A DNA stretch of 50,799 nucleotides from Candidatus Tabaqchalia intestinavium (lineage in GTDB: Bacteria > Bacillota > Clostridia > Oscillospirales > CAJFTT01). The stretch lies in assembly GCA_904420005.1 (NCBI GenBank), contig CAJFTT010000044.1:105766-156564 (forward strand). Reading direction: 5' to 3'. The translations under genes and the position numbers were made by a program. Below, in pieces: positions 5,930 through 50,799 of the stretch. Positions within the stretch are counted from its first letter, which is position 1. Each line of letters opens with the position of its first letter. Under the pieces are notes generated by a model. That model did no database searches. It saw only the letters and a program-made list of their open reading frames with translations, and had not been told where the DNA came from.

Positions 5930-6077
5930 TTTCGTGCCCGCGGCGGGCAACGGGAAACACGGTTGTTCGGGGCCAGGCACGCACCCGGCTGCGCTTTCCC
6001 CGCTCACGGGCGCGCGCCTTCGTGGTTTAAGCTGATTTTCCGCGCCTCATGGCGTTCCCCCTGCCCCGGGTACGCCT
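5930..6077 (+). repeat. CRISPR-like 61-bp array A
   Basis: Three degenerate repeats begin near 5930, 5991 and 6052, exactly 61 bp apart. The clearest core is TTTCCCCGCTCACGGGC (from 5995). The repeat is about 28 nt, and the intervening segments of about 33 nt share nothing with each other. The segment between the second and third repeats (6019-6051) recurs in array A' at 6477-6509. Confidence 0.55.
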
Positions 6078-6595
6078 GGCTGCCCCCCGCGGGTCTGTAT
6101 CGGCTTTGCGCCCGCGAAAATGCCGGCCCCGGCGGCGGGCGGAAATCGCAGGGGGCCGGGGCGCCGCGAACCGGCGGACAGTCGCGCGCCGGCGGATGAC
6201 CGCGCGCCGCGTGCAGGGGAAGCGTCGCCCGTGTCCGTTCCGGCCGCCGCGCGCGGGGCCTTGCCCCCGAGGGCAGGCTGGTTGCTTTCTTCTATTAACC
6301 AGATTATAACAAGGGGATCTCGCGAAGTCAACGCCCGGGGTGGGCAGGGGAAACGGCAGTTTTGTTTACAAAGCACGCCGGTCCGCCGCGCTTTCCCCAG
6401 CCTCGGGCGCGCCTGCAAAGCACAATTCCCTGCGGCGCAGGCGGGCGAGTGTTTTCCCCGCTCGCGGGCGCGTGCCTTCGTGGTTTAAGCTGATTTTCCG
6501 CGCCTCATGGCGCTTTCCCTGTCCCCGGATACGCCTGGCTGCCCCATCCGCGGGTCTGTATCGGCTTTGCGCCCGCGAAAACGCCGCGGCCCCGG
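5990..6595. repeat. Direct duplication of a ~140-bp intergenic segment
   Basis: Positions about 5991-6130 and 6449-6595 are near-identical (shared landmarks CCTTCGTGGTTTAAGC, GGGTCTGTATCGGC and CTTTGCGCCCGCGAAAA), with offset 458-461 bp and a few substitutions and one small indel. Each copy holds two repeats of the 61-bp array and the same spacer-like segment. The second copy runs straight into the duplicated mnmE fragment. Confidence 0.85.
6388..6537 (+). repeat. CRISPR-like 61-bp array A'
   Basis: Three repeats begin at 6388, 6449 and 6510, exactly 61 bp apart. Cores are CTTTCCCCAGCCTCGGGC, TTTTCCCCGCTCGCGGGC and CTTTCCCTGTCCCCGGA. The TTTTCCCCGC...GCGGG pattern is the one seen in type I-E CRISPR repeats. 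No leader or cas gene is nearby. Confidence 0.6.
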
Positions 6596-6885
6596 CGGCG
6601 CGCTGGCGCAGGCCGGAGAGCAGCCCCGCGTCAGGATCGGCCTGCCCCACGCCCGTCAGCTCGCGCACCGCCGCCAGGCCGGGGATCTCCCCGCCCTGCC
6701 GCGCGCTGGCAAATACAACATGTTGAAATTTCCCCTGAATATACGCTGCGTCAATTCTCTGCGGCAGATCGGTCTTGTTGATGACGGCGATGGCCGCCTT
6801 GCCCCGCAGCGCGCGCACGAGAGCGAAGTCCTCCTCCTCCAGCGGCTGCCCGCCGTCGAACACCGCCAGCGCCAGCGCCGCGACC
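6596..6885 (-). pseudogene. Duplicated internal fragment of mnmE
   Basis: About 285 bp nearly identical to mnmE positions about 7068-7360 in the same orientation. It covers roughly MnmE residues 297-394 (end of the G domain and start of the C-terminal helical region; FDGGQPLEEEDFALVRALRG is readable). It carries several substitutions and a 3-nt deletion in a GCC run. It abuts the stop codon of intact mnmE and has no start, G1 motif or C-terminus, so it is a non-functional partial duplication. On the other side it joins the duplicated intergenic segment. A mis-assembly is a possible alternative. Confidence 0.8.
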
Positions 6886-8256
6886 TCACTTGCCGACGCA
6901 GAAGGTGGAAAAAACCGTGTCGAGGATGCTGTCCGTCGCGCGCTCGCCCGTGATCTCGTCGAGCTGCAAAATGGCGTCCTGGACGCAGACGGCCACCGCG
7001 TCGAGCGTCACGCCCGCCCGCGCCGCGCCCAGCGCCTCCTCCACCGCCTCCAGCGCCCGGCGCGCGGCGTCGCGCTGGCGCAGGCCGGAGAGCAGCCCCG
7101 CGTCGGGATCGGCCTGCCCCACGCCCGTCAGCTCGCGCACCGCCGCCGCCAGGCCGGGGATCTCCCCGCCCTGCCGCGCGCTGGCAAATACAACATGTTG
7201 AAAATTCTCCTGAATATACGCTGCGTCAATTCTCTGCGGCAGATCGGTCTTGTTGACGACGGCGATGGCCGCCTTGCCCCGCAGCGCGCGCACGAGCGCG
7301 AAGTCCTCCTCCTCCAGCGGCTGCCCGCCGTCGAACACCGCCAGCACCAGCGCCGCCGCCTCGACCCGGCGCCGGGCGTAGGCCACGCCGATCTTCTCCA
7401 CCGCGCCGCGCGCGTCGCGCAGGCCGGCCGTATCCGCCAGCCGCAGCACGACGCCGCCGACCGTCACCGTCTCCTCCACGACGTCGCGCGTCGTCCCCGC
7501 GATGTCGGTCACGATGCTGCGCTCATAACCGGCGAGCAGGTTCATCAGCGTGGATTTGCCCGCGTTGGGCCGTCCGCACAGCACCGTATCCACCCCGTCG
7601 CGCAGCGCCATCCCGGCCTTGGAGGTGTCCAGCAGCGCCCGCAGCGCCGCGGCGGCCTCTTCCAGCGCGGCCTCCAGCGCCTGCGGGGAGAGCGCCTCGA
7701 CATCCTCCTCCGGGAAATCGCTCCACGCCGCGGCATGCGCCGCCAGCGCGACGAGCCCCGTGCGGATCCCCGTGATCCGGCGGTACAGCGCGCCGTCGCG
7801 CGCGGCGTTGGCCGCCCGCAGCGCGAGCTCCCCCTGCGCGCCGATCGTGGCCATGACGGCCTCCGCCTGCGTCAGATCCATTTTCCCGTGCAGGAACGCG
7901 CGGCGCGTGAACTCTCCCGGGCCCGCCGGCGCGGCCCCTGCGGCGTACAGCGCCTCGAGCAGCCGCTCCATGATGAACAGCCCGCCATGGCAGGACAGCT
8001 CCACCACGTCCTCGCCCGTATAGGAATGCGGCGCGCGGAACACCAGCGCCACGCATTCGTCCAGCTTCTCGCCCGCCGCCGTGCGCGCGTCGCCCAGCGC
8101 CGCCGTGTAGCCCGGCATCGCGGCGAGCGTCTTGGCGGGATTGCGCGGGAAAAACACCTTCCCCGCGACGGCGAAGGCGTCCCGCCCCGAGATGCGCAGC
8201 ACGCCGATGCCGCCGGCGCGGCAGCCCGAGGCGATGGCCGCGATGGTTCTCTCCAT
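6886..8256 (-). CDS. mnmE: tRNA uridine-5-carboxymethylaminomethyl GTPase MnmE
   Basis: A 456-residue protein of standard MnmE length. The order is an N-terminal folate-binding domain (about 1-118), a helical domain with an inserted Ras-like G domain (P-loop GRPNAGKST at 228-236, later the NKTD motif), and the C-terminal catalytic CVGK at 453-456. With MnmG it modifies the wobble U34 of certain tRNAs. The ATG at 8256 has AAGGAG 8 nt upstream. The usual Firmicutes neighbours (jag/rnpA/mnmG) are not in this window. A fragment of the gene is duplicated immediately downstream, and a periodic repeat array lies immediately upstream. Confidence 0.97.
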   Translation of the reverse strand: MERTIAAIASGCRAGGIGVLRISGRDAFAVAGKVFFPRNPAKTLAAMPGYTAALGDARTAAGEKLDECVALVFRAPHSYTGEDVVELSCHGGLFIMERLLEALYAAGAAPAGPGEFTRRAFLHGKMDLTQAEAVMATIGAQGELALRAANAARDGALYRRITGIRTGLVALAAHAAAWSDFPEEDVEALSPQALEAALEEAAAALRALLDTSKAGMALRDGVDTVLCGRPNAGKSTLMNLLAGYERSIVTDIAGTTRDVVEETVTVGGVVLRLADTAGLRDARGAVEKIGVAYARRRVEAAALVLAVFDGGQPLEEEDFALVRALRGKAAIAVVNKTDLPQRIDAAYIQENFQHVVFASARQGGEIPGLAAAVRELTGVGQADPDAGLLSGLRQRDAARRALEAVEEALGAARAGVTLDAVAVCVQDAILQLDEITGERATDSILDTVFSTFCVGK

Positions 8257-8288: not shown

Positions 8289-8505
8289 GCGCCTGCGTCA
8301 GGCGCGCGGGGGTATTTTCCGTCCGGTTCTGCGATCCCTCCACGGCGGCGGCCTGCACCAGGCGCGTGGTGGGGATATTTCCGCCGCCAGCGCCGCAGCT
8401 GCCGGCAGACAGGCCCCTGCGCCAGGCGCGTGGGGACGTTTCTATCGCCCCAGTCGTGGTACGTATATTTGCGATCCCTGCGTCAGGCGCGCGTGGCCGT
8501 TTCCC
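8289..8505 (-). repeat. CRISPR-like ~61-bp array B
   Basis: Four repeats start at 8292, 8352, 8416 and 8477 (spacings 60, 64, 61). Each begins CCTGC, has the core CAGGCGCG (8300-8307 in the first) and ends with a G-rich part and TTTCC. On the complementary strand the order is GGAAA...CCCC...CGCGCCTG, similar to the other arrays. The array begins 33 nt upstream of mnmE. Between it and metY (8506-8817) I see only GC-rich sequence with no gene. Confidence 0.6.
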
Positions 8506-40288: not shown

Positions 40289-40341
40289 CGCGCCGGCCCG
40301 CCTGCGAGGCGGCGGGCGGAAAATACGCACGAACATTAAGC

Positions 40342-40380
40342 CAAAGAAGGCCGGGGGAAACAATCCTCCGGCCTTCTTTG
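40342..40380. terminator. Bidirectional terminator-like hairpin
   Basis: Arms CAAAGAAGGCCGG (40342-40354) and its complement (40368-40380) enclose a partly paired 13-nt loop. It lies between the XRE gene (plus) and prmC (minus), ending CTTCTTTG on both strands. Confidence 0.7.
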
Positions 40381-40417
40381 ACGCGTCTGCCTCGCCACGC
40401 CCGGCCCGAGACGCAAC

Positions 40418-40467
40418 GCCCAGCAGCGCCGGTGAGCAAGCGGCGGCAAGCGCGAGCGCTGCTGGGC
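40418..40467 (-). terminator. Second hairpin downstream of prmC
   Basis: A 12-bp stem GCCCAGCAGCGC/GCGCTGCTGGGC (40418-40429 with 40456-40467) with a 26-nt loop that can pair internally. It lies about 50 nt after the prmC stop codon. No U-run on the minus strand. Confidence 0.5.
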
Positions 40468-50645: not shown

Positions 50646-50799
50646 CCACCCGGCGGACAGCGGGCAACCCACCCGGCGGATGGCAAATTTTTCACCCGTC
50701 CGCGCCGCCGCGTGTAGGATTGTCAAACATCTTGTACAGTCAGAGAAAGGAAAAAAGCAGCGAGTTTTTCTTTCGGAGAGAGCCAGCCAAGGGGACGCA

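Follow-up and report, generated by a model that had tools for sequence, protein, structure and literature searches.

A composite copy of mnmE and array sequence beside mnmE, probably placed by local rearrangement at a decayed mini-array of type I-E geometry

The window analysed here is a 50,799-nucleotide stretch of one contig (C44) of the draft genome of Candidatus Tabaqchalia intestinavium. It carries an intact mnmE gene on the minus strand (6886-8256), which keeps its TrmE_N, GTPase (MMR_HSR1), and helical (MnmE_helical) domains according to Pfam and ends with a stop codon at 6886-6888. On the stop-codon side lie an array segment, A (5992-6140), composed of a repeat, a spacer-like segment, a weak second repeat, and a second spacer; a unique intergenic stretch, U1 (6141-6449); a duplicate of A, designated A' (6450-6603); and a degenerate copy, on the minus strand, of an internal mnmE fragment, B' (6593-6887), whose source within the gene, B, occupies 7065-7362 of the same strand. 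On the other side of mnmE there is a degenerate array with a period of about 61 bp (8290-8505; lags of 60, 64, and 61).

The similarity within both pairs of segments is far beyond chance. In a BLAST search within the window, B' matches B with 96.0% identity over 298 columns (E=7e-139) and A' matches A with 91.4% identity over 151 columns (E=6e-55); B and B' are 298 and 295 bp long and 475 bp apart, A and A' about 149 and 154 bp long and offset by 458-461 bp. A 33-nt spacer-like segment is the same at all 33 positions in the two array copies (6020-6052 and 6478-6510). One edge of B' falls at 6887, within the mnmE stop codon, the borders being accurate to a few bases, while at the other edge A' abuts B' directly, so that the two form a single composite block, A'B', situated between mnmE and U1. 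The original prediction of a partial mnmE duplication joined to a duplicated array segment with the same spacer is therefore supported by the BLAST matches, the abutment, and the identical spacer, and it was also right in placing the mnmE repeat immediately past the stop codon and in the offset of the array copy (458-461 bp); the copies of 285 and 140 bp that it described are real, although both sizes were slightly too short.

The longest identical runs are 53 nt in the B/B' pair and 39 nt in the A/A' pair, with substitutions scattered along the copies, which supports the earlier claim that this is not a simple assembly copy. The assembly is a draft of 71 contigs and 81.8% completeness, in which A'B' might have come from a second strain or a related organism and been misjoined during assembly or binning; we consider this quite improbable, as scattered substitutions separate the copies from their sources, B' has changes that are pseudogene-like and unlike those expected in the working mnmE of another strain, and the shared runs are shorter than most of the repeats found at contig ends (about 66-138 columns), so that an assembler could pass through them. 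Contig ends show a pattern of their own: near-identical repeats of about 86 bp are present at 50712-50799 of the window and at the ends of contigs C20, C40, and C47, and other contig ends carry different repeats of such kind, which are probably the borders of mobile elements or of other repeats that broke the assembly.

Substitutions at every codon position distinguish B' from B, and B' has lost one in-frame Ala codon. The position of a V-to-A change (LVLAVFD to LALAVFD) is occupied by V or I in all 11 relatives compared, and the gap left by the Ala codon is found in none of them; an E-to-G change lies in a column that is variable among these relatives, with no G noticed, while the V-to-I and N-to-K changes are uninformative about decay, since relatives also show I and K there. 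By manual reading, four of the six internal substitutions are nonsynonymous, and B' alone gives no Pfam match. Judging from these changes, B' has probably drifted like a pseudogene and is functionless DNA debris. The divergence of A/A' is about twice that of B/B', which is consistent with one shared age, though not proof of it, since the array pair is noncoding on both sides while the mnmE side of the other pair is constrained. A functional small protein encoded by B' together with A' (ORF 6366-6863) was considered and rejected, as B' has no Pfam hit, is drifted, and spans no more than a late portion of the GTPase domain; the ORF is spurious. It was nevertheless taken as coding by our own codon-usage gene caller, and for this reason the locus is absent from the 65 intergenic regions and from the pair counts given below, while its repeats are outside the training set of the repeat matrix (PWM), the ORF having hidden the only passing pair (6392/6453, 16 of 20 bases, lag 61).

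The duplicated sequences were also sought in 58 relatives, none of which is a congener. The B stretch matched mnmE in 42 of them, with one match each at 28-46% identity; a search for sister loci gave a best-segment identity of at most 57% in the best 80 of 148 genome-contig loci, and the array segment, for which up to 10 candidates per genome were scored, gave a single 26-nt match, in G026, a genome of the same order. A foreign origin of the segment was rejected: the phage search returned two records (E 0.08) and the plasmid search 23, the best (E of 0.002) covering 68 bases within the mnmE copy, all of them weak or at chance level, and viral contigs contained no exact 20/21-mers of it.

The array segment begins with R5992 (5992-6019, plus strand, written in TTTCCCCG orientation), which scores 13.9 bits with the PWM and is followed by the spacer-like segment 6020-6052 and, 61 bp past R5992, by a weak second repeat-like stretch (6053-6080, plus strand, 0.0 bits). 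The same layout is found in A', with R6450 (6450-6477, 14.3 bits), the spacer 6478-6510, and a weak second repeat (6511-6538, -1.4 bits), and a further repeat lies in U1 (6389-6416, 7.6 bits). Random 61-mers reach 10.0 bits at the 99th percentile and 12.2 bits at most, so R5992 and R6450, the two top-scoring repeats of the stretch, exceed this background, to which the weak second members belong. The repeats 6389 and 6450, which agree at 16 of 20 bases, lie 61 bp from each other, and the pairs 5992/6053 and 6450/6511 are spaced alike; since 6053-6080 matches R5992 at 12-13 of 20 bases at best, under the pair threshold of 15, its assignment as a repeat follows from spacing only. The stretch 5992-6603 thus has the 61-bp repeat-to-repeat period of type I-E arrays; near-identical repeats of 28-29 nt are absent (scores of 13.9, 14.3, and 7.6 bits and two at background), as are adjoining cas genes, the neighbours being mnmE and an L-fucose-isomerase-like gene (a weak Pfam match, 25.0 bits against a cut-off of 29.3). 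By itself, the locus belongs only weakly to the genome-wide array set described below.

A 146-base query (5985-6130) matched, in its own genome, itself, A', and two repeat-like places of 34 nt, and nothing else. No source beyond chance was found for the spacers of 5992-6603 in the own genome (5985-6130 searched), in phages, or in viral contigs (exact 20/21-mers), the exact 21-mer search of viral contigs being negative for the identical 33-nt spacer as well. Nine of the 13 differences between A and A' fall within the 56 repeat positions, while the shared 33-nt spacer is unchanged (Fisher p=0.018). Such a bias toward the repeats is not predicted by plain duplication and might reflect later exchange between repeats. 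None of the Rfam families attained its gathering score anywhere in the window; an intergenic region at 40340-40460 gave a weak match to ar35 (43.2 bits against a cut-off of 45), accompanied by overlapping matches of the chance type on the two strands.

On the outer side, A and A' are homologous from the edge of R5992 and R6450 onward, and the flanks beyond are unrelated. At the junction of A' with B' a GC-rich, imperfect microhomology around CGGCG is discernible by eye, and CCTC is common to both sides of the junction of B' with the mnmE end; both of these breakpoints lie outside array repeats. Recombination between arrays, suggested originally as the event recorded here, therefore finds support at one of the three breakpoints (the repeat edge 5992/6450) and not at the other two. 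Microhomology at the junctions is weak evidence in a region of 66% GC.

It is probable that the array is a decayed mini-array of I-E geometry and that a local rearrangement put A'B', a copy of mnmE and array sequences, between the mnmE stop codon and the array. The copies, the way they abut, and the sequences at their junctions are directly observed; from these we infer a replication-fork mechanism and a single event. Most likely, a stalled or broken fork would have switched template: running in the direction of mnmE, it would have left its template at the stop codon, returned to 7362 through the CCTC microhomology, copied B' from mnmE to about 7065, and jumped again at the GC-rich microhomology to the end of A; A' would then have been copied and the array rejoined via the alike repeats 5992 and 6450. 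A stepwise origin, which fits almost as well as fork switching, appears somewhat unlikely. It would start with a tandem duplication of a 458-bp A-U1 unit by unequal crossing-over of the repeats 5992 and 6450, followed by duplication of a 475-bp unit (6888-7362) and a deletion joining A' to B'; both offsets would then equal the distance between the unit borders, but three events of similar age are required and there is no trace of the deleted halves.

The 3' ends of mnmE are integration sites of some genomic islands, and a remnant of a site-specific integrative element was considered with this in mind. It is highly improbable and was rejected: the copied fragment comes from within mnmE and does not include the 3' terminus, the duplication of which would be expected of att sites, and no integrase was recognised by eye among the listed reading frames around 4-11 kb, where Pfam was applied to mnmE and the isomerase-like gene only.

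Arrays with a period of 61 bp are not confined to this locus. They were surveyed in 854 kb, i.e., 40% of the genome, comprising 428 intergenic regions of at least 100 bp, with coding and intergenic DNA separated by our own codon-usage gene caller. Pairs at lags 60-62 are present in 65 of the 428 intergenic regions, compared with 8-17 for the control lags (six sets), and in 32 of 643 genes versus 26-44 at control lags. Autocorrelation in the first 237 kb gave 58 per 10,000 intergenic positions at lag 61, against mostly 0.04-2.6 per 10,000 in 5-lag bands away from multiples of 61, with further rises near 122 and 183; coding DNA of the same 237 kb has no comparable 61-bp peak. The PWM, trained on contig C44 alone and tested on the other contigs at a threshold of 9, found the spacing of 61 in intergenic regions 13 times, versus 0.21 per other lag, and in coding DNA not once. 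When the arrays that were inspected are stacked at 61 bp, about 28 conserved and about 33 variable positions can be seen by eye, and the repeats are alike within one array and different between arrays. The best-preserved scattered array (L153 on contig C3, 3400-4130) has about a dozen units with, by eye, about four successive repeat variants. A dispersed intergenic element, mostly about 190-330 bp long and with copies about 74-84% identical, was also noted (L003 1257-1584, L004 1451-1750, contigs C2, C5, C40, and C44 left of the window).

A second duplication involving an array was found on C44 (L124, 14578-14861 and 18986-19274), to the left of the window, at 11.2-10.9 kb and 6.8-6.5 kb from its start. 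It is 289 bp long and 95.8% identical, its copies lie 4.4 kb apart in two intergenic regions, and it comprises a terminator-like sequence, a 61-bp array with its spacer, and the last approximately 50 bp of a gene; this case supports the rearrangement reading at mnmE. Altogether, seven recent duplications (at least 60 bp, 85%; not at contig ends and not wholly coding) are present in the 854 kb, two being the A and B pairs and one the L124 case, with four away from detected arrays, and arrays may be hot spots for such rearrangements.

According to the available part of PMC10011333, type I-E arrays of E. coli have 29-bp repeats and mostly 32-bp spacers, the sum of which accounts for a period of 61. 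The genome encodes cas3, cas8e, cas11e, and a truncated cas7e on contig C18 (L164; PADLOC E values of 4e-206, 5e-106, 3e-50, and 1e-35, respectively); cas7e stops after about 110 residues, 77 bp before the contig end, and was possibly broken by an insertion or by the end of the assembly. Cas1 was found neither with the Pfam model nor with the G026 protein (the search had no positive control) in this 81.8% complete assembly. Among 59 genomes, the own one and the 58 relatives, a Cas7e match is limited to the own genome and G026. The latter carries cas3, 8e, 11e, 7e, 5e, 6e, Cas1, and a Cas2-exonuclease fusion; after these genes comes a canonical array with a period of 61, which is interrupted by the contig end (L190). 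The matrix built on our genome scores the I-E repeat of G026 at 17.4 bits, against a maximum of 15.3 among 2448 tiles of 15 other sampled G026 stretches. The identity of the array repeats to the G026 repeat, however, has a median of 15/29 versus 14 for random sequences, with 7.8% above the random 99th percentile; being hardly closer than random, they argue against simple decay of one ancestral repeat and weaken the I-E link by sequence alone. Seven relatives sampled at 10-181 kb each (N masked in G001, G026, and G033) have no 61-bp peak comparable to that of the own genome: lag 61 is at zero in G001, G009, G033, G023, and G053, at 0.5 per 10 kb in G044, and at 1.6 per 10 kb in G026, where it comes mostly from the true array (21 windows), while in G023 a signal at lag 60 (5.5 per 10 kb) originates from a single place.

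The content of the spacers bears on the same question. When 159 array pairs were compared with the 854 kb (matches of at least 24 nt, E <= 1e-4), 12 spacers matched elsewhere, seven of them in coding DNA, whereas 4453 control intergenic 41-mers gave nine coding hits (p=4.5e-7). A non-local hit of any kind was obtained with 121 of the 4453 controls, 328 of the 337 hits being in noncoding DNA; of the nine coding ones, two represent A/A', five concern contigs C12/C56 (with at least one gene relic), one is a local repeat at a distance of 0.7 kb, and one is a 25-nt match. In a separate listing of intergenic-to-gene matches (E <= 0.01, genes scoring over 40), five of 115 are 32-36 nt long and all five lie inside arrays, the other 110 being at most 27 nt or at least 44 nt. 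The array set of this genome thus appears to contain fixed-length spacers copied from other DNA: two match cas8e (35/35 and 32/33 nt), and the others rpsD (32/32 nt; the spacer lies in the L153 array), a MATE transporter gene (31/33 nt), and a gene for an F5/8-type-C domain protein (88.9% over 36 nt). Neither AAG nor another shared PAM motif was noticed by eye at the seven coding protospacers.

On these sequence features, the scattered arrays look like decayed mini-arrays of I-E type with partly self-derived spacers. That the 61-bp repeats are instead some other periodic intergenic repeat (REP/BIME-like or a structural RNA), recombined at mnmE and not derived from CRISPR, is unlikely. Such an origin would suit the degenerate, locus-specific repeats with their near-random identity to the G026 repeat, the mnmE locus with no cas genes adjoining, the window with no Rfam family at its gathering score, and the self protospacers with no PAM noticed; it does not account for a period equal to the 29 + 32 of type I-E (PMC10011333, as far as the part available goes), the cas3, cas8e, cas11e, and cas7e genes of the genome, the first rank of the G026 I-E repeat among all sampled G026 tiles, and the five out of five gene matches of 32-36 nt that sit in arrays.

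It is possible, though we would put it at rather less than an even chance, that off-target activity of Cas1-Cas2 seeded dozens of intergenic sites, that the arrays took pieces of the cell's own genes, and that the mnmE duplication is one scar of this process. Each mini-array would then have grown from a local repeat and taken up own-gene pieces (cas8e twice, rpsD, and the MATE transporter and F5/8-type-C domain genes); self-immunity would have been tolerated, perhaps through failed interference (cas7e being broken, or truncated in the assembly), and the duplication at mnmE would have resulted from repeat recombination or from integration nicks breaking forks. The accessible portions of several papers make off-target seeding plausible here: E. 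coli Cas1-Cas2 integrates off-array in vitro, with specificity coming from IHF (PMC10011333), off-array integration under Cas1-Cas2 overexpression is cited in PMC11788318, and loss of all but Cas1-Cas2 could allow self-spacers to accumulate (PMC6990116).

The mnmE duplication alone is ordinary genome debris, and it matters as a pointer to mini-arrays of I-E type that are scattered through a natural genome and whose spacers are partly self-derived. To our knowledge, off-target CRISPR adaptation is known from overexpression work and in-vitro integration only, and no printed report of naturally scattered arrays like these was found in a search conducted largely without subscription papers. If confirmed, the mini-arrays would document off-target CRISPR adaptation in nature and would suggest that intergenic DNA and the ends of nearby genes are reshaped by such arrays.

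Template switching by microhomology and pseudogenes formed by tandem duplication are known processes, which the mnmE locus resembles in its composite insert, short junction homologies, and position beside the source; it departs from microhomology-mediated template switching in having one junction in a CRISPR-like repeat. With the type I-E arrays of E. coli and G026 the scattered arrays share the 61-bp period, a GC-rich repeat of about 28-29 nt of the TTCCCCG...CGGGG kind, and spacers of about 32-33 nt, while differing from them in their degenerate, locus-specific repeats, in their spread over dozens of loci of few units each, and, at mnmE, in the absence of adjoining cas genes. Non-canonical spacer integration by Cas1-Cas2 (Nivala et al. 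2018, as represented in the available parts of PMC11788318 and PMC11687729) likewise concerns chromosomal sites outside arrays and could make small arrays, each with its own repeat; it took place under overexpression, whereas the arrays described here are natural, old, decayed, and genome-wide, with Cas1 not found in the assembly. Finally, orphan arrays of E. coli contain anti-cas spacers (Almendros et al. 2016, as cited in the accessible part of PMC8616872), comparable to the two spacers matching cas8e here, but those arrays are of type I-F and belong to lineages that lost cas, while the present ones are scattered and I-E-like, in a genome that still carries cas8e.
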